Assembly: GCA_905234175.1 (NCBI GenBank)
Contig: CAJOGX010000003.1
Coordinates: 1-64,000, forward strand
Source of the DNA: an uncultured Selenomonadaceae bacterium
GTDB lineage: Bacteria; Bacillota; Negativicutes; Selenomonadales; Selenomonadaceae
DNA: 64,000 bases
Direction: 5' to 3'
Shown here: positions 30,046 to 49,620 of the stretch, piece by piece
Position numbering within the stretch: the first letter of the stretch is position 1
Layout: each line of letters starts with the position of its first letter
Program-made: the position numbers and the translations under genes
The notes under the pieces: model-generated
Seen by the model: the letters and a program-made list of their open reading frames with translations, nothing else
Databases searched by the model: none
What the model was told of the DNA's origin: nothing

Positions 30046-31371
30046 TTAATCGTGCTCGTACTCGTCAAAAGTTTTCAGCAGATTCAGTGCGTACTGCAGG
30101 TTGACGAACTCGCGCCAGGCGTTAGGGTCATACACGCGGAAGGCGTTTTGAATCTGCGGAATCAGCTGTAAGCAGCCCTTGCGAATGTCGTCGACAACGG
30201 GATAATCCAGCGGCAAAATTTTCGGCAGCTCCGCCAGCAACAGCCTCACGTCCGCCAGAGAAATTTGCGTGTAAAGCGTTCTGTGAATTGCGTTGAGCGC
30301 GGCTTCCTCGAAAAAGTTTCCGGCGGTTTCGTCAAACATGACTTCGCGCAGGTGCGAGGCGAGCGCGCGGCACGTCAGAAATGTTTCCAGCTTGCCCGCG
30401 AAAAAGTTCACCGGCATCGTTTTTATCAGCGTCGGGAAAAGATTTTGCACCAGCGCGTTGGCAAGAAGTGGATAATTTATCGGCTTGCTGGCGGCAACGC
30501 TCTCAAGAATGCTCTGCCCGAAAGGCGCCACGACTGAACGGCGGGCGGCGCGGTACTTCAAAATCCCGTCGTCGAAAACGTCGTTGCGGTCTTCCTCGTT
30601 GAATTTTTCAATCTTGTAAATGTTGTGGTAGGCGTCGGCAGTACCGCGCTCGACTTTTTTAAAATATTCTTCGCGGGACTTGACGCTGTAATGATTCATG
30701 ACAATTTTTTCAACGGTCGGCGGATTGTTATGGAAAATCGGAACGACACCGCCATTTTCGTTGACTGCGTGGAACCCTTCAAAGTAGGCGGCAAAGTGCG
30801 GGTTGTAGAAAAAATTAATCTTGCGCGGGTCGGCAATCGTGCTTACGTGAGCGTTGCCTCCAGGCAGGCCGGTATTCGGCAGCGGCGGAATATATTCGTC
30901 GGAAGCGTGACGCGTAAATCTTTCAAGGACGCCGCGAGAATAATCAGCAGTCTCCTGATAATTTGAACCGAAATTGTGAAGATTAGCCGCCAGCGCCGCC
31001 GCCTGCGGTTTGTCTCTCAAAACTTCGTCGACAACCTCAACGATGGTCTTGTTATTTTTCGGGAAAACAAATTCGTCGGCGTCAATGAAAGTCATGTACC
31101 GGCAAAAAAATCTGAAGTTCTGCACCGCCTCGTTGTACGCCTCGTACTGGCGCGCCTTGCCAGGGTAAAAAGTGTACGTCACAATTTCTTTGTCAATGTA
31201 CGGCTGCAAAACTCCTCTGAGGTTGTCGGGGCTGTCGTTGTCGTAAATGTAAAAGTGGTCGACGCCCGCCAGAAGGTGATAATCCAGCCACTCCTTTGCG
31301 TAGGGCGCCTCGTTCTTCATAATCGCGACCACTGCCAAATCGTACAGGAACAAATTTTTATCAACTGCCAT
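30046..31371 (-). CDS. GT92/DUF23-like glycosyltransferase, copy A
   Basis: LAVVAIMKNEAPYAKEWLDYHLLAGVDHFYIYDNDSPD...RYMTFIDADEFVFP; ATG start. Confidence 0.82.
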   Translation of the reverse strand: MAVDKNLFLYDLAVVAIMKNEAPYAKEWLDYHLLAGVDHFYIYDNDSPDNLRGVLQPYIDKEIVTYTFYPGKARQYEAYNEAVQNFRFFCRYMTFIDADEFVFPKNNKTIVEVVDEVLRDKPQAAALAANLHNFGSNYQETADYSRGVLERFTRHASDEYIPPLPNTGLPGGNAHVSTIADPRKINFFYNPHFAAYFEGFHAVNENGGVVPIFHNNPPTVEKIVMNHYSVKSREEYFKKVERGTADAYHNIYKIEKFNEEDRNDVFDDGILKYRAARRSVVAPFGQSILESVAASKPINYPLLANALVQNLFPTLIKTMPVNFFAGKLETFLTCRALASHLREVMFDETAGNFFEEAALNAIHRTLYTQISLADVRLLLAELPKILPLDYPVVDDIRKGCLQLIPQIQNAFRVYDPNAWREFVNLQYALNLLKTFDEYEHD

Positions 31372-31380
31372 GAATTTTCC

Positions 31381-32658
31381 TCACTCCCTGTCGAACGCCT
31401 TCAGCAAATCCTTCGTGTACCGCCAGCGGATAACCTGCCGGAACTTTTGCGAATCGAAGAGCTGATAGGATTTTGAAATACATTCCTCGATAATTTTTAT
31501 GCAGGCACGGCGGATATTTTTCACGGCGGGATACTTCAGACGCAGAATTTCCGGAAGCTCGCTCAGCAACAGTTCAAAATCTGGGAACGAAAAATTTTGC
31601 TTGAGCGCGCCGTTAAGCCACAGCAGCGAAAATTCCTCCGCCGAAATTTCTCCGAAACGCAGCTGAAACTTTCTGCTGAGCGCAAGGCAAATCAGATATG
31701 TTTCAATTTTACCTTCCTGCGGCAAATTTTTCAAATCACTCGTCAGCGCCCGAATCAGCGCTTCGACGGCGCGATTATTACGCTCCTCGTCAGTTTCGTG
31801 CCTTAGCTCCAGACCCGCGCGAAAATTTCTGTAGCGTAAAATTTCATCGTCAAATTCCTCGTTGCGGTCGAAGTAGCTGAAATCGTCCGACAGGTAAACC
31901 GCGTCATTGCCGTCCGCCGCGCCGCGTTTGAGTTTCTGCAGGTACTCCGCGCGAGACTTCACGAAATAATGATTGACAGAAATTCTGTCCGCCGTCATCG
32001 CGGGGTTATCGTAGGCGTCGAGCCTTTCGCCGTGCTCGCTGACTTTGAATTTGCCCAAAATAAAATCGCAGGTGTGCCCGTTCACGACGTAATTCACGGC
32101 GCGCGGATTCACAATCTGCTTGACGTAAAAATTTCCAATATCGAAAACGTGAGCGGCGTCCACCCACTTGACGGTTTTCCAGTCGCGCGGAGCCCGCCGC
32201 GTAAACCTTTCCAGAACGCCGCGCGAATAGTCCGCCTCCGCCTCCCCGTTGGAGCCGAAGTAAAACATATTCATTCCGAGCGCCGCCGCGTCAGGATTTT
32301 CCGCAAAAATTTCGTCTGCCGCCTCCACGATACTCCTGTTACCGCGCGGCAAAATAAATTCGTCGCCGTCAATAAACGCCATGTACCGGCAGAAAAATCT
32401 GTAACGCTGAACCGCGTCATTATACGCCTCGTACTGGCGCGCCCTGCCAGCGTAGGGAATGTGCGTCACAAAACCGCGCTCAACGTACGGCTCCAAAATT
32501 TTTTTCTGCGCGTCCGAATCCTCGTTATCATAAATGTAAAAGTGCTCGACGCCAGCCAGAAGGTGATAATCCAGCCACTCGCGCAGGTACGGCGCCTCGT
32601 TCTTCATAATCGCGACCACTGCCAAATCGTACAGGAACAAATTTTTATCGACCGCCAA
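31381..32658 (-). CDS. GT92/DUF23-like glycosyltransferase, copy B
   Basis: Paralog of copy A; first 24 residues identical (MAVDKNLFLYDLAVVAIMKNEAPY); TTG start. Confidence 0.82.
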   Translation of the reverse strand: MAVDKNLFLYDLAVVAIMKNEAPYLREWLDYHLLAGVEHFYIYDNEDSDAQKKILEPYVERGFVTHIPYAGRARQYEAYNDAVQRYRFFCRYMAFIDGDEFILPRGNRSIVEAADEIFAENPDAAALGMNMFYFGSNGEAEADYSRGVLERFTRRAPRDWKTVKWVDAAHVFDIGNFYVKQIVNPRAVNYVVNGHTCDFILGKFKVSEHGERLDAYDNPAMTADRISVNHYFVKSRAEYLQKLKRGAADGNDAVYLSDDFSYFDRNEEFDDEILRYRNFRAGLELRHETDEERNNRAVEALIRALTSDLKNLPQEGKIETYLICLALSRKFQLRFGEISAEEFSLLWLNGALKQNFSFPDFELLLSELPEILRLKYPAVKNIRRACIKIIEECISKSYQLFDSQKFRQVIRWRYTKDLLKAFDRE

Positions 32659-42950: not shown

Positions 42951-42992
42951 TAAAAAAAAGCCGCCGCAGATTTTTCCGCAACGGTTTTTTTT
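42951..42992 (-). terminator. intrinsic terminator after the MutS-like gene
   Basis: Minus strand CCGTTGC...GCGGCGG stem with A-tract before and T-tract after. Confidence 0.6.
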
Positions 42993-44772
42993 AATCGCTG
43001 ATAATCCCCGCCATTCTGAGCAGAAATTTCGCGTTGGTAGTAGTGCAGCGCCCTTCGCGGAGCTTGAAATCGAACTTAATCTGTCCGTCCTCGTAATATT
43101 CCTGGAAATGCGCGTTGGAAATTTCGACGCCGTTCACCGCAGTCATGTTGCACAAATCGAAATCGTGCGTCGTGACGAGCGTAATATTTCGCGCGTTCGT
43201 CAGCCGCTTAATCGCCTCGCGCGCGCCGTAAATCCTGTCGCCCTCGTTCGTGCCCTTGAAAATTTCGTCGATACAAATCAGCATCGGCAAATTTTCCTCG
43301 CTGTATTCAATCATGCTCTTAATCCGCAAAAGTTCCGCGTAGAAAGTCGACAGACCCTGACTTATGTCATCGTTGACGCGAATCGAAGTGAAAATCGCCA
43401 GCCGACTGACGGAAAATTCCTCCGCGCAAACCGGCGCGCCCGCGTACGCCAAAAGCACAGCGCTCGCCAAAGTTCTAATCCAGGTCGTCTTGCCGGACAT
43501 ATTCGCGCCCGTGATAATCGTCGTGCCCGCGCGAAGGTCAACGCTGTTGGCAACGGCTTTCTTATCAGCAATCAAAAGGCTGGTCAAATTTTTTGCGTAA
43601 ATCCTCGGCTTCGGCTCGTCTAAAAGCGTCGGGAAACAGTACGTCGTTCGCGTCTGCCCAATCGACGCCAGCGAAATCAGAACTTCCACTTCCGACCACG
43701 CTTCAATCCACTTTCGCAGGTGCCGCGACGCCGTGATTCGCCAGCTAAGAAACGCCGCCGCGCAGAAAAAGTCCAGCAGGAACAGCGCGTTCCCTAAAAT
43801 GTAAACCACAGGATTTTTGCGCGCGTTCACGACCGAAACTATCAGCGCCAGCATTTTCAGTTTTTGCGCCGCCGAAACTTCATGCGTCAGCGCGTCCCGC
43901 ACTTCCCGCAGGCTCGACGAACTGAAATCCGTCGTTTCCAGCCGCTCGAAAATTCCCTGATAAAGCCGCAGCTCCTTCGACAGCATTTTCAGCGGTTTAA
44001 GAAGTTCCGAAGTCCGCCGCATAAACGCGAACGCGACCAGCAGCGAGAACAGCGGCACGAGCGGCAGCAGCATTGGGTCCAAAATTGCGCGCCACGTCAG
44101 AAAAAGCTGAATCAGAAAAAGCGGCAGCGGCAGGAACCGCAGGTACAAAATTTTTTCCGTGTGCGGCTGAACTTCCTCGACCGCGTGAATCAGCTCCGTC
44201 GTGTCGTGGTTGTTCGGCATGAGCCGCGCGAACGCCTCCAGGTCAAGCGATAGCCGCGGCCGCTGTAAAAGTTCCGCGACGCCGTGCTGTCTCCTTCGTA
44301 CCGCGAAAAAATCTTCCGGCGGCATGGGCGAAAGTGCCCGCGCTAATCTGTCCCGCCCGCGCTTCGTCCGCGCCGCGCATATGTATTGGAAAATCGAGCC
44401 CGCTCCAAAAATGTACAGGTCAACGTCCTGCGGCGTGTCGCTCTTCAGGTACGCGCTGCCGTCGTTTGAGCGCTTGCGCCACGTCCCGCGCGCCCGCACT
44501 ATGTACGAGTTCAAAACGTTCAGCCGCGAAGTTAAAAATTTCTGCCGCTGCTTAACTTCGTCGTGGTAGCTCACCAGCCGCAGAAATATCAGCAGCAAAA
44601 CCACCGCGCCCCAATATCCATGGCTGTAGTAATCGTAGCCAATCGCAAAGCTCGCGCACATCGCCAGAAAAACGCCGGTGCGCGCCCAGCTGACTTTTTT
44701 TTCGCGCCGGTAAAGACCTTTCTGCTCCGTCAAATCAATTTCGCGCTCGTTGTCGTAAAAAGCCCTGTTCAA
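42991..44772 (-). CDS. membrane-anchored MutS-like ATPase
   Basis: Two N-terminal hydrophobic segments; TTIITGANMSGKTTWIRTLASAVLLAYAGAPVCAE, LICIDEIFKGTNEGDRI, LVTTHDFDLC; no mismatch-recognition domain; TTG overlaps SDR stop (TTGA). Confidence 0.88.
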   Translation of the reverse strand: MNRAFYDNEREIDLTEQKGLYRREKKVSWARTGVFLAMCASFAIGYDYYSHGYWGAVVLLLIFLRLVSYHDEVKQRQKFLTSRLNVLNSYIVRARGTWRKRSNDGSAYLKSDTPQDVDLYIFGAGSIFQYICAARTKRGRDRLARALSPMPPEDFFAVRRRQHGVAELLQRPRLSLDLEAFARLMPNNHDTTELIHAVEEVQPHTEKILYLRFLPLPLFLIQLFLTWRAILDPMLLPLVPLFSLLVAFAFMRRTSELLKPLKMLSKELRLYQGIFERLETTDFSSSSLREVRDALTHEVSAAQKLKMLALIVSVVNARKNPVVYILGNALFLLDFFCAAAFLSWRITASRHLRKWIEAWSEVEVLISLASIGQTRTTYCFPTLLDEPKPRIYAKNLTSLLIADKKAVANSVDLRAGTTIITGANMSGKTTWIRTLASAVLLAYAGAPVCAEEFSVSRLAIFTSIRVNDDISQGLSTFYAELLRIKSMIEYSEENLPMLICIDEIFKGTNEGDRIYGAREAIKRLTNARNITLVTTHDFDLCNMTAVNGVEISNAHFQEYYEDGQIKFDFKLREGRCTTTNAKFLLRMAGIISD

Positions 44773-45482
44773 GAAAAACCTCCGTCCACTACAAAATTCG
44801 CGCCGGTTATAAATTTCGCGCGGTCGCTCAGCAGAAAAAGAATCACGCCCGCCGCGTCCTCAACTTCCCCGCGCGGTATCCCCGAAATTTCCGCGTCAAC
44901 ATTCTGCGTCATGCGCGTGCCGGAAATAAATCCGAGCGTGACGCTGTTCAGACGAATATTTTTTTCAGCGAGTTCGAGCGCCGCCGTGCGAATGTACGTT
45001 TCCGCCGCAGATTTCGTCGCCGCGTAGCTCGCCAGACTTTTCTGAGCCCTGTGCGCGCTGACTGAAGATATCAGCACCTGCGCGAAACTTTCAGCGCGAA
45101 ACTTTTTCCTGCAGAAAATTTTTATGAGATTTGCAACGGCGAAAAAGTTCACGTTCATCAGCTTCGACGCCGCGTCCGCGTCCCAGACGTTCACCGGCAA
45201 AATCGCAGCCGCGCCCGCCGAGTGTACCGCGCCGTCAAATTTCCCGTGCTCCGACACAAATTCCGCCAAAACTTTTTCTGCCGCGTCGAACTGCGTCACG
45301 TCCAAAATTCGCGGCTGCCACGCCTGCCCAAATTTTTCAAGTTCGTCATCTGGGAAGTGCCGCGCCACGCCCAAAACTTTCGCGCCAGCCTCAAGCAGTT
45401 CCCGCGCGACTTCCCTGCCAATTCCGCTCGACGCGCCGGTTACTAAAAAATTCTGCCCGCTGAAATTAAACGTGACGTTCAT
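44769..45482 (-). CDS. SDR family oxidoreductase (FabG-like ketoreductase)
   Basis: VTGASSGIGREVARELLEAGAKV, HSAGAA, SSVSAHRAQKSLASYAATKSA, C-terminal ITGANFVVDGGFS. Confidence 0.9.
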   Translation of the reverse strand: MNVTFNFSGQNFLVTGASSGIGREVARELLEAGAKVLGVARHFPDDELEKFGQAWQPRILDVTQFDAAEKVLAEFVSEHGKFDGAVHSAGAAAILPVNVWDADAASKLMNVNFFAVANLIKIFCRKKFRAESFAQVLISSVSAHRAQKSLASYAATKSAAETYIRTAALELAEKNIRLNSVTLGFISGTRMTQNVDAEISGIPRGEVEDAAGVILFLLSDRAKFITGANFVVDGGFS

Positions 45483-45691
45483 TGCGTAACAATCTCGTAT
45501 AAATCACGAACAGTCACGACTTCCTGAAGTTCCGCGCGCCGTAAAGTTTTATCGTACTCAAGATTGACCATCGTCAGCACGCTGATCACGCTCAGCGAAT
45601 CCCAGTCGGGAATGTCAGCGATTTTCGTTTCCGGCGTGATTTCCGCCTCGGTGTCAATCGTCTCGGCGAATTTTTTGATAAAGTTTTCCAT
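45479..45691 (-). CDS. acyl carrier protein
   Basis: 70 aa; IPDWDSLSVISVLTMV phosphopantetheine site; ATG 45691 after GAGGAGG. Confidence 0.9.
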   Translation of the reverse strand: MENFIKKFAETIDTEAEITPETKIADIPDWDSLSVISVLTMVNLEYDKTLRRAELQEVVTVRDLYEIVTQ

Positions 45692-45702
45692 GAGCGTCCT
45701 CC

Positions 45703-46758
45703 TCAAATTTCAAGCGGCGGGAAAATTTCCGTTTCGTGCAGGTCTACGACGCCCGCCGCGCACGCTAAGCCCGTGCCAAAGCCGCACGCTAAAACTCTCC
45801 GCAGATTTTCATTTTTTCCGGCGTACAAAGTCGACAGCATGAGCGGGATTGACGCGCAGGTTGTGTTGCCGGTTTTCTGCGCCCCAAACGGCATTTTCGC
45901 TTCGTCGACGCCGATTTTCCGCGCCAGATATTTTAAAATCAGCGCGTTCGCCTGGTGCATTGCGAATAAATCTATCGCGTCCAGACTCAAATCCAGCGCG
46001 CCCAAAGTTTCCGCAACCAGCGCCCTGACGCTCTTCATGACGAAATTCATCACGCCCATTCCGTCCATGTGTACATCTTCGAGCGTGTGCCCGTTGCCGT
46101 TTTCGTCGTAGCTCCAAACGTCCGTCACGCCAGGTTTGTGCGGAGTTTTGAACGCGCCAGCCGGAATTACGAGTCTGTCAAGATTTTCGCCCTCGGTGTG
46201 AAACGCAAAAATCGACGGCGCAGAATTTTTAGCGGCAGTCAAAAGCGTTGCGGAACTGCCGTCGCCAAGAACCATTCGCGTCGCCTTGTCTTCCGTGCTG
46301 ACTTTTTTCGTAATCGAATCGCCCGCGCAGAAAAGCACGTTCCGACAGTAACCACTCTCAATCAGCAACGACGCCACGAATAAGCCGTACACGTAGCCCG
46401 CGCAGCCGTAATTTATGTCCAGCGCCAGCGCGTGATTCGGCACGCCCAAGACCGCCTGCATTTCCGCCGAAGTGTGCGGCAAAATGTAATTCGGCGTTTC
46501 CGTCACGAAAATTATTCCGTCAATTTCCGCCGGCTCAACAATTCCTGAGCTGAAAATTTTCCGCGCGGCCTCCACGCAGTAATCCGCCGAAGTTTTTCCG
46601 TCCGGCGTCACGCTAAGTTCGCTGATTTGTGTCGACTTGATAATTTTTCTGACGGCTTCCGCGCCGAATTTTTCTCCCAGCGTCGACAGCACCAGCTTTT
46701 CCTTAGGCAGCGCGGTCGCTATCGCCGAGATTTTCACGCCTGTAAAAATTTTTCCCAT
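45703..46758 (-). CDS. beta-ketoacyl-ACP synthase III-like (KASIII)
   Basis: Cys in NYGCAGYVYG, His in FAMHQANALILKYLA, Asn in GNTTCASIPLML; ATG 46758 preferred. Confidence 0.9.
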   Translation of the reverse strand: MGKIFTGVKISAIATALPKEKLVLSTLGEKFGAEAVRKIIKSTQISELSVTPDGKTSADYCVEAARKIFSSGIVEPAEIDGIIFVTETPNYILPHTSAEMQAVLGVPNHALALDINYGCAGYVYGLFVASLLIESGYCRNVLFCAGDSITKKVSTEDKATRMVLGDGSSATLLTAAKNSAPSIFAFHTEGENLDRLVIPAGAFKTPHKPGVTDVWSYDENGNGHTLEDVHMDGMGVMNFVMKSVRALVAETLGALDLSLDAIDLFAMHQANALILKYLARKIGVDEAKMPFGAQKTGNTTCASIPLMLSTLYAGKNENLRRVLACGFGTGLACAAGVVDLHETEIFPPLEI

Positions 46759-46759
46759 G

Positions 46760-47386
46760 TCAAAACTCCCTGCCAGGCACGCCAACCACGAAAGCTTCAG
46801 CCTGCGTATCGCGCGCAACGAAACTGTTCGCCGAAACCTGACTGCCGCGCCCAAGATTTTTTCGCGGACTAATCGCGGCGTTGGAGCCAATGAAACATTC
46901 CGCGCCGATTTTAGCAAAGCCGCCAATCGAAACGTTCGGGCATAGCACGCTGTACGCGCCAATTTCCACGTCGTGCCCGACCGCCGCGCAGGCGTTCACC
47001 AGACAAAAATCGCCAAGCTTCGTGTTCGTCGAAACAACCGCCTTCCAGCTGATTATCACGCCCACGCCAAAATTCACGAACCGCGCAACCGACGCCGAAG
47101 GGTGAATCACGTTTACAAAGTTCGCGCCGTTCGCCCGCAGAATTTCCGCAACCTTTTTCCGACCGGCAACGTCGCCAATCGCATTCACGGCAAATTCGTC
47201 CGCGCGAAATTTATAACCGGCAATCGTCCCGACAATTTCAGCGCCCGCGCGAATTTCAGGATAATCGTCCAGCGCGGTTGGAACGTCCGAGAGAAATCCC
47301 GCCACGCGAAATTCCGGCATGTCCAAAAGCATTTCGTAGACTTCGCGCCCAAAGCCGCCCGCGCCCGCTATCAGCAAATTTTTCAT
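46760..47386 (-). CDS. NeuD/PglD-like sugar O/N-acyltransferase
   Basis: MKNLLIAGAGGFGREVYEML..VIHPSASVA, left-handed beta-helix hexapeptide pattern, VVGVPGREF tail; ATG overlaps upstream stop (ATGA). Confidence 0.87.
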   Translation of the reverse strand: MKNLLIAGAGGFGREVYEMLLDMPEFRVAGFLSDVPTALDDYPEIRAGAEIVGTIAGYKFRADEFAVNAIGDVAGRKKVAEILRANGANFVNVIHPSASVARFVNFGVGVIISWKAVVSTNTKLGDFCLVNACAAVGHDVEIGAYSVLCPNVSIGGFAKIGAECFIGSNAAISPRKNLGRGSQVSANSFVARDTQAEAFVVGVPGREF

Positions 47387-48177
47387 CTGTACGGTTTCGC
47401 CTTCCAATACTCCACAAATTTTTCCGAGAACGCCCAGTCCCCGCGCAAATCTTTCGCCAGAAATTCCTGCCAGCGCCGCTCGTCTTTGAACATCAGCCAC
47501 ATTCGCGCGCCGACGTTATACGCGCAGCCGCAGAATCCGTACTGCCCATACAAAATTTGCATGGATTTATTCGTGAAGAACGTGCAGTGCGGCGGCAGGA
47601 AGTAGAACCAGTTCGCGTCGCGCGGGACTTCCTCAGCTATCAACGTGTGCAGCAGGAATACGCCGTCCGGCTTGAGCAGCCGCAGAATTTTTTCTACGTC
47701 GCGCCGCCCGATTAAGTGTTCAAAGACCGAGCACGTCATGACCGCACCAAATTCCGTCGGCGAAACTTTCTGCAGGTATTCCGGCTTCGTCATGAACTCA
47801 TCGAATTTTTCTACGACCGGCGCCGCTAATTTTTCGTTGACGAAATCCGCCAGCTTGCCGTCGCCGCAGCCGTAGTCTAAAAATCTCTCGTCAGCGCGAA
47901 AAATTTTCTGTTCGTAAAGCTCGCAAATCAAATCCGCCTGCCGGTGCAGGCGCTCAAGCCAGCGCGGGTCGGCGTCGCAGTTTTCCGTACCCTGATAAGC
48001 CTCGTGGCACTCCAGATTCAGCGCCCGCCACTGAGCTTCCGGCATTTCGTACAGCGTGCGGGAAATCACCAGCCCGCAGTATGCGCAGCGGTCATACTGG
48101 CAGCGGTCTAAATTTTTCAGCCGGAAATCTTTTTCGAGGAACGGCTCAAGCTCCCCGCCACAAATGAAACAGTTCAA
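47383..48177 (-). CDS. class I SAM-dependent methyltransferase with N-terminal zinc-binding-like Cys cluster
   Basis: CFICGGELEPF..CQYDRCAYCGLVIS, FLDYGCGDGKLADF, SVFEHLIGRRDVEKILRLLKPDGVFLLHT; TTG 48177 after AGGGGG. Confidence 0.83.
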   Translation of the reverse strand: MNCFICGGELEPFLEKDFRLKNLDRCQYDRCAYCGLVISRTLYEMPEAQWRALNLECHEAYQGTENCDADPRWLERLHRQADLICELYEQKIFRADERFLDYGCGDGKLADFVNEKLAAPVVEKFDEFMTKPEYLQKVSPTEFGAVMTCSVFEHLIGRRDVEKILRLLKPDGVFLLHTLIAEEVPRDANWFYFLPPHCTFFTNKSMQILYGQYGFCGCAYNVGARMWLMFKDERRWQEFLAKDLRGDWAFSEKFVEYWKAKPYR

Positions 48178-48188
48178 AAATTTTCCCC

Positions 48189-48968
48189 CTAGCGTTTGAC
48201 GGCAACGGGCACAATCACGCTGTCGCCGCCGGAATTTGTAAAAGTATCCGCCGCCACGTCGAAAATTTTCCCAACGGTCTCGGCAGTCAGAATTTTTTTC
48301 GGTTCGCCGCACGCAAAGACGCCGCTGTTTTTGATAACGATAACTTCATCGGCGTAGGCGCGCACGTGGTTTATGTCGTGGAGCACGGCGATAATCGTCA
48401 TGTCGAAATTTTTGTTGACGGCGCTGATAATTTCCATGACTTCGAGCTGGTGAGCGATGTCAAGGTAAGTCGTGGGCTCGTCGAGCAAAAGAATCTGCGG
48501 ACGTTGCGCCAGAGTCATAGCGAGCCAGGCGCGCTGCCTTTCGCCACCAGAAAGTGAGGCAACCTGCCGCGTTTCAAAATCAGTCAGCCGCGTGACTTCG
48601 AGCGCCCAGTTGACAGCGTCGGAATCTTCCTTTGAGTCGCCGCTGAAAAATTTTCTGTGCGGAAATCTGCCGAAAGCCGCCAGCTGTCGTACCGTAGTAT
48701 CCTGCGGAGCTTCGCGTTCCTGCGGGAGTATCGCCATGACCTGCGCGAGTTTTTTTCTGCCGAGAGTTTTCACGTCGACGCCGTCAAGTCTAACCGCGCC
48801 GGTAAAATTTTCGTTGAGCAGACACAGCGCCTTCAGCAAAGTTGACTTGCCCGCGCCGTTGGGACCGATAATCGCCGTGCGTTTCTGTTCGCGAAAGGCG
48901 TAAGTTACGTCGCGCAGAATTTTTTTCCCGCCGAGTTCGACGCTGAGATTTTCCGCCGCCAGTTTCAT
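48189..48968 (-). CDS. ABC transporter ATP-binding protein, FecE/FhuC-like
   Basis: AIIGPNGAGKSTLLKAL, SLSGGERQRAWLAMTLAQRPQILLLDEPTTYLDIAHQLEVM, AVLHDINHVRAYADEVIVI; ATG overlaps CAP gene stop (ATGA). Confidence 0.9.
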   Translation of the reverse strand: MKLAAENLSVELGGKKILRDVTYAFREQKRTAIIGPNGAGKSTLLKALCLLNENFTGAVRLDGVDVKTLGRKKLAQVMAILPQEREAPQDTTVRQLAAFGRFPHRKFFSGDSKEDSDAVNWALEVTRLTDFETRQVASLSGGERQRAWLAMTLAQRPQILLLDEPTTYLDIAHQLEVMEIISAVNKNFDMTIIAVLHDINHVRAYADEVIVIKNSGVFACGEPKKILTAETVGKIFDVAADTFTNSGGDSVIVPVAVKR

Positions 48969-49438
48969 TTCAGCCGGAAAAACTGCGCCCAGTAATGCTT
49001 GTACTTCAAATTCGGCATGTACAGATAGCCGACGCCGAGTTCGCGGAATTTCGGGTTCATAATATTTTCGCGGTGGCTGGGCGAGTTCATCCACGCCTCG
49101 ACGACTTCCCTGCTTGAGCGCTGACCGGCGGCAATGTTCTCGCCAACCATTCTGTACGGCCTGGCGACGGCGGTAAAGCACGAAGTTCCATTGGGGCGCG
49201 TGTGCGAAAATCTGCGGGTAATTTCCTTCGCGCGGACTTGAGCGTAGCGGTTCAAATCGCTGGCGAGTTTCAGCGGCTGTAAATGCTCCCTGCGCCGCTC
49301 GAGGTTCACCAGTTCCAAAACTTCCTGCGCGAAATTCTGCGAAACCGCCGCGTCCTCTTTCCACGCCGACGCCGCGTAGACGTTCGACGCAAATAAAAAG
49401 AAAGCTGCCAGAATCAGCAGCGAAAAAAATTTTTTCAT
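48965..49438 (-). CDS. secreted CAP (SCP-like) domain protein
   Basis: Signal peptide MKKFFSLLILAAFFLFASNVYA; ELVNLERRREHLQPLKLASDLNRYAQVRAKEI..SHTRPNGTS..GENIAAGQRSSREVVEAWMNSPSHRENIMNP. Confidence 0.92.
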   Translation of the reverse strand: MKKFFSLLILAAFFLFASNVYAASAWKEDAAVSQNFAQEVLELVNLERRREHLQPLKLASDLNRYAQVRAKEITRRFSHTRPNGTSCFTAVARPYRMVGENIAAGQRSSREVVEAWMNSPSHRENIMNPKFRELGVGYLYMPNLKYKHYWAQFFRLK

Positions 49439-49544: not shown

Positions 49545-49548
49545 CAAT

Positions 49549-49620
49549 GCGATTGGCGCGGCTCGAACGCGCGACCCACTGCTTAGGAGGCAGTTGCTCT
49601 ATCCACTGAGCTACAACCGC
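49549..49620 (-). tRNA. tRNA-Arg (anticodon CCT)
   Basis: GCGGTTG acceptor, D-arm GCTCAGTGGATAGAGC, anticodon arm ACTGC-CTCCTAA-GCAGT, T-arm GCGCGTTCGAGCCGCGC, CAATCGC; CCA not encoded. Confidence 0.95.

Follow-up and report, generated by a model that had tools for sequence, protein, structure and literature searches.

In the first 64,000 nucleotides (nt) of contig CAJOGX010000003.1 from an uncultured Selenomonadaceae bacterium (assembly GCA_905234175.1), hereafter the window, the five genes at 45.5-48.2 kb probably constitute a nucleotide-sugar acylation cassette, and the CAP-ABC gene pair and the MutS-like gene on either side of them are, by the same analysis, likely to be units independent of it. 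Open reading frames read from the window sequence place eight genes, all on the minus strand, at 42991-49438. On this reading, three independent units have come to lie side by side in one lineage: CAP-ABC; a set encoding a methyltransferase, a NeuD-type acyltransferase, a KASIII, an acyl carrier protein (ACP) and an SDR-family reductase; and the MutS-like gene.

Gene content of the cassette

The five genes of the cassette are as follows.
47383..48177, minus strand: S-adenosylmethionine-dependent methyltransferase with an N-terminal CxxC...CxxC motif, 264 aa, TTG start (Methyltransf_23)
46760..47386, minus strand: NeuD/PglB/VioB family sugar N-acyltransferase, 208 aa (TIGR03570, NeuD_NnaD, above cut-off)
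45703..46758, minus strand: KASIII-type ketoacyl-ACP synthase, 351 aa (profile match; C119/H268/N298 kept)
45479..45691, minus strand: ACP, 70 aa (weak NCBIfam ACP matches; Ser32 of the DSL motif kept)
44769..45482, minus strand: SDR-family 3-oxoacyl-ACP reductase-like enzyme, 237 aa (Pfam/NCBIfam SDR; Y153 of YxxxK kept)

Direct reading of the sequence showed ATGA overlaps at the CAP/ABC, methyltransferase/NeuD and ACP/SDR junctions, TGA-C-ATG between NeuD and KASIII, TTGA between the SDR and MutS-like genes, and 11-nt gaps at ABC/methyltransferase and KASIII/ACP. Together with the open reading frames, this bore out the eight genes, order, junctions and gaps given by a first-pass annotation made from the sequence alone, and catalytic residues are kept (C119/H268/N298 of KASIII, S32 of the ACP, Y153 of the SDR). 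All eight genes were found by tblastn at 77-95% identity in the nearest relative, genome G034, with both flanks and the order preserved, so the arrangement is not an assembly artefact. A simple gene caller missed the NeuD gene of the window and also some genes in other genomes, and the gene lists of the relatives are therefore partly approximate; where a tblastn result is given, it is the basis of the linkage claim.

The NeuD protein scored 169.9 bits against TIGR03570 (cut-off 160.8) over residues 3-206, and its G137-H138-D139, which holds the putative catalytic His in the hexapeptide region, was invariant across 10 homologues. Its best PDB match was VioB 7txp (2e-21 over residues 1-206). No Pfam match was obtained for the window ACP, and its NCBIfam ACP matches were weak only; the orthologue in G034, 94% identical, passes Pfam PP-binding. 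The methyltransferase starts with TTG in the window and with ATG at the aligned position in G034. Its predicted fold (pLDDT 82) is nearest to the dTDP-sugar C-3' methyltransferases TcaB9 and KijD1 (TM score 0.56 by query length), a model that supports a nucleotide sugar as the likely substrate and gives no particular methyl position. Homologues of this methyltransferase adjoin flagellar genes in G020, G021 and G023; those of G020 and G012 have a VioA-like aminotransferase gene as a neighbour.

Gene content, catalytic residues, families, the recurrent linkage of the set to glycan genes and the linkage of the methyltransferase family to flagellar genes were all computed here; we infer the exact acyl group, acceptor, methyl position and final glycan. 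KASIII would condense acetyl-CoA with malonyl-ACP, carried on the dedicated small ACP, to acetoacetyl-ACP, which the SDR would reduce to 3-hydroxybutyryl-ACP. The NeuD/VioB-family enzyme, expected to take acyl-ACP instead of acetyl-CoA as its donor, would then N-acylate a nucleotide-linked amino-dideoxy sugar with this acyl group, the favoured acceptor being a dTDP-4-amino-4,6-dideoxyhexose such as viosamine. The methyltransferase would methylate the acceptor sugar, and the decorated sugar would go to a flagellin glycan or to an exported surface polysaccharide.

Recurrence of the cassette

The same five genes (NeuD, ACP, KASIII, SDR and methyltransferase) occur together in G022, G004, G011 and G002, and in G006 without a separate methyltransferase. 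The cassettes of the genus adjoin Glf (UDP-galactopyranose mutase), GT2 and/or Wzm/Wzt export genes with a Wzt_C domain. Compared with the Wzm/Wzt clusters of G022, G004, G011, G002 and, lacking a free methyltransferase, G006, in which the methyltransferase is 48-50% and NeuD 36-37% identical to that of the window, the window set lies between CAP-ABC and the MutS-like gene, lacks adjoining Glf, GT2, Wzm and Wzt genes, and has a KASIII from a different clade. Wzt of G006 carries a fused C-terminal methyltransferase domain (L237:4961-7042), in keeping with an exported glycan being methylated. Within the genus the cassette is an exchangeable set, which a single small lineage has acquired at a site between genes unrelated to it.

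A scan of public genomes gave the 80 best KASIII relatives, from many phyla, whose same-strand neighbours were taken up to a distance of 4 kb. An ACP stood beside KASIII at 54 of these 80 loci, an SDR at 63, NeuD at 34 and all three at 27; the Pseudomonas viosamine islands were among them. Since SDR and ACP genes also adjoin ordinary FabH genes, linkage to NeuD is the specific part of this pattern. The first-pass proposal of an acyl group made for attachment to a glycan is thus supported, as a recurring glycan-linked module, while its suggestion of an undescribed system that includes the MutS-like and ABC ATPases is not.

Outside the species pair formed by the window species and G034, the nearest KASIII in the scan was that of Selenomonadaceae UBA2897 (L099; 50%). 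There, as in the window, ACP and SDR adjoin KASIII, but unlike in the window this trio is accompanied by NeuB, a CTP transferase, an AMP-ligase and an aminoglycoside-NAT-like acyltransferase; the product of the L099 cluster is possibly an acylated nonulosonate. In G033, a broken KASIII copy lies in a decayed acyl module (L065:8709-10591).

Comparison with the Pseudomonas viosamine island

Mutants of P. syringae have established N-(3-hydroxybutyryl)-2-O-methyl-viosamine on its flagellin, for which an enzyme set makes dTDP-N-(3-hydroxybutyryl)-2-O-methyl-viosamine; the acylated sugar is gone after deletion of the reductase gene vioR or loss of VioB, and the methyl group is gone after deletion of vioM (PMC3927599). 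This island (vioA, vioB, vioT, vioM, vioS, vioR, acp) has KASIII, ACP, ketoreductase, NeuD/VioB and methyltransferase in common with the window. KASIII, SDR and NeuD of the window are 34-37% identical to their Pseudomonas counterparts, and the homologues of VioB (36%), VioR (35%) and ACP (a short 31% match) are encoded together in the window operon. The central set thus resembles a characterised flagellin-glycan cluster (PMC3927599), which counts against the undescribed eight-gene system of the first-pass annotation.

Several observations weigh against the preferred reading. The window KASIII is homologous to VioS (34%), but orthology, which had been expected, was ruled out by a 32-row KASIII tree: Pseudomonas VioS grouped (100/100) with KASIII proteins that are linked to vioA elsewhere in the genus, and the window KASIII fell in another clade, with KASIII proteins encoded beside FdtA/DegT or a NeuB cluster. 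VioA and VioT belong to the Pseudomonas island but not to the window operon. No BLAST similarity was found between VioM and the window methyltransferase. A search of the window genome with VioT returned generic GT2 domains only, the best match being a glycosyltransferase beside FdtA, and no dedicated glycosyltransferase was identified. Wzm was not found in this genome, about 82% complete, or in G034, likewise incomplete. Finally, the acyl product is not readable from sequence. Because KASIII is not a VioS orthologue and homologues of VioM and VioT were not found, we claim only a similar working and not membership of the viosamine island. A limited literature search on 3-hydroxybutyryl O-antigen genetics and Selenomonas flagellin glycans turned up nothing directly useful.

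Acceptor sugar and alternative readings

The window genome carries RmlA-like and RmlB genes (RmlB above cut-off), and a DegT that shares 49% identity with Pseudomonas VioA is encoded on the contig with RmlA/RmlB, not on the cassette contig; two other strong DegTs of this genome are 27-29% identical to VioA. A viosamine-type acceptor is favoured on the strength of RmlA, RmlB and this VioA homologue, though unproven. A flagellin gene is also present. In both the window genome and G034 a DUF3298 gene comes immediately after the VioA homologue; the DUF3298 gene of G006 and G004, by contrast, comes after a VioS-like KASIII. The window lineage may therefore have lost its old VioS partner, the genomes being only about 80% complete.

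A cassette otherwise alike could instead act on a dTDP-3-amino-3,6-dideoxyhexose of the Fuc3N/Qui3N type. We regard this as a serious, if clearly less probable, rival, because the window genome also carries a GT2-FdtA-DegT cluster (FdtA 8e-50) in which no acyltransferase was seen. In G025 (L066), moreover, close homologues of this FdtA and DegT (74-77%) directly adjoin ACP, SDR and a KASIII of the same clade as that of the window, but the acyltransferase beside that set is a GNAT and not a NeuD. The NeuD/VioB/PglD/PerB enzymes with solved structures use 4-amino sugars, and the match of the window NeuD to the 3-amino enzyme QdtC was far weaker than that to VioB (8e-4).

It is unlikely that NeuD only acetylates and that the acyl group built by KASIII, ACP and SDR is destined elsewhere, for instance for a small secreted metabolite. 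Most characterised NeuD/PglD/VioB members do take acetyl-CoA as donor, but NeuD adjoins KASIII, ACP and SDR in many phyla, and the P. syringae reductase and VioB mutants described above lose the acylated sugar (PMC3927599).

Still less probable is that KASIII is a housekeeping FabH and the block an operon for fatty-acid synthesis. The window KASIII is the sole KASIII found in its genome, and no FabH above the TIGR00747 cut-off was found in the genus genomes tested (G000, G034, G003, G006, G007, G022, G032). The window protein itself, however, scored 165.9 bits against this model, far under the cut-off of 292, and it has a close orthologue in G034 alone. No KASIII of any kind was found in G007 (89% complete) or G032 (96% complete), from which it appears that fatty-acid initiation in the genus may not use KASIII. 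In addition, no other fatty-acid synthesis genes adjoin the window KASIII, and NeuD and the methyltransferase do not fit such an operon.

Neighbouring genes

The features flanking the cassette are as follows.
48965..49438, minus strand: CAP-superfamily secreted protein (YkwD-like), 157 aa (Pfam CAP 7e-22)
48189..48968, minus strand: FecE/FhuC-type ABC importer ATPase, 259 aa (NCBIfam; FecE top match, 254 bits)
42991..44772, minus strand: membrane MutS-domain-V ATPase, 593 aa, TTG start (MutS_V at 419-578), judged to be outside the module
49548..49620, minus strand: tRNA-Arg (CCT), just upstream of CAP
42961..42984, minus strand: terminator-like hairpin 3' of the MutS-like gene, a 10-pair stem followed by a T run

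In two other species of the genus, G004 and G006, the CAP-ABC pair occurs without the acyl module. The ABC ATPase gene is near-core in the genus and lies directly after a FecCD-like permease in G017 and G035. The only FecCD above cut-off in the window genome is on another contig (G000:C7:80383-81291), far from the ABC ATPase gene, for which reason the latter would most simply be the separated ATPase of a FecCD importer.

The MutS-like gene is likewise near-core (of 36 genomes of the genus, 32 carry it with at least 59% identity), and its neighbours vary in almost every genome of the genus. Module genes stood beside it in none of the 22 other loci examined by tblastn. It overlaps unrelated genes by 1-4 nt elsewhere, at -4 to an OppF-like gene in G006 and at -1 in G009. 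The N-terminus FYDNEREIDL is conserved in the MutS-like protein of the window and of loci L069, L070, L075 and L078-L097. MutS_V was the sole domain found, and three named families were rejected: mismatch-repair MutS (TIGR01070; 105 vs 642 bits), MutS2 (TIGR01069; 69 vs 400 bits) and the KamC reactivase ATPase (NF052383; 110 bits vs a cut-off of 300). Nothing directly useful on membrane MutS homologues turned up in a limited literature search. In G034 (L078), an extra 316-aa open reading frame, whose start looks GIY-YIG-like by eye, lies between the MutS-like gene and glgC.

In the gene calls made here, 15 of the 35 same-strand pairs in the rest of the window, and 39 of the 76 at other loci of this genome, lie no more than 15 nt apart; with about half of same-strand pairs equally close, tight spacing is a poor guide to shared function. 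A promoter-like site was noted upstream of the tRNA-Arg that precedes CAP and, like the hairpin, is a pattern match only; terminator-like hits across the region were not more frequent overall than in shuffled sequence.

The first-pass annotation had suggested that the MutS-like and ABC ATPases could form one system with the cassette, and linkage in relatives was its proposed check. This co-occurrence check was run, and the units were unlinked outside G034. CAP and MutS of the window type were beside KASIII at one of the 80 scanned loci, the G034 record alone, and CAP, ABC and MutS-like genes are neighbours of the cassette in two related species only, that of the window and G034. They are merely co-located with the cassette, perhaps on a common transcript. 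A single eight-gene system, in which the FecE-like and membrane MutS-like ATPases act on the acylated product, can draw on the close spacing and on the conservation of all eight genes in G034, but it is hardly credible against close spacing that is common in the genome, a near-core MutS-like gene that is unlinked to the module elsewhere and equally coupled to unrelated genes, and a CAP-ABC pair found on its own in G004 and G006. It is equally implausible that in this two-species lineage the cassette is co-transcribed with the MutS-like and iron-type importer ATPases as a regulated surface-glycan modification functionally tied to both.

Elsewhere in the window, at 30046-32658, are two tandem glycosyltransferase-like paralogues with near-identical N-termini (MAVDKNLFLYDLAVVAIMKNEAPY).

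Meaning of the cassette

The tempting link between glycan acylation and the MutS-like ATPase is removed as wrong, and the near-core membrane MutS-like protein with its ever-varying neighbours becomes a question separate from glycan acylation. On the reading preferred here, that of a nucleotide-sugar acylation cassette, the KASIII/ACP/reductase/NeuD route of amino-sugar acylation, known from Pseudomonas flagellin, would now extend to rumen Selenomonadaceae.

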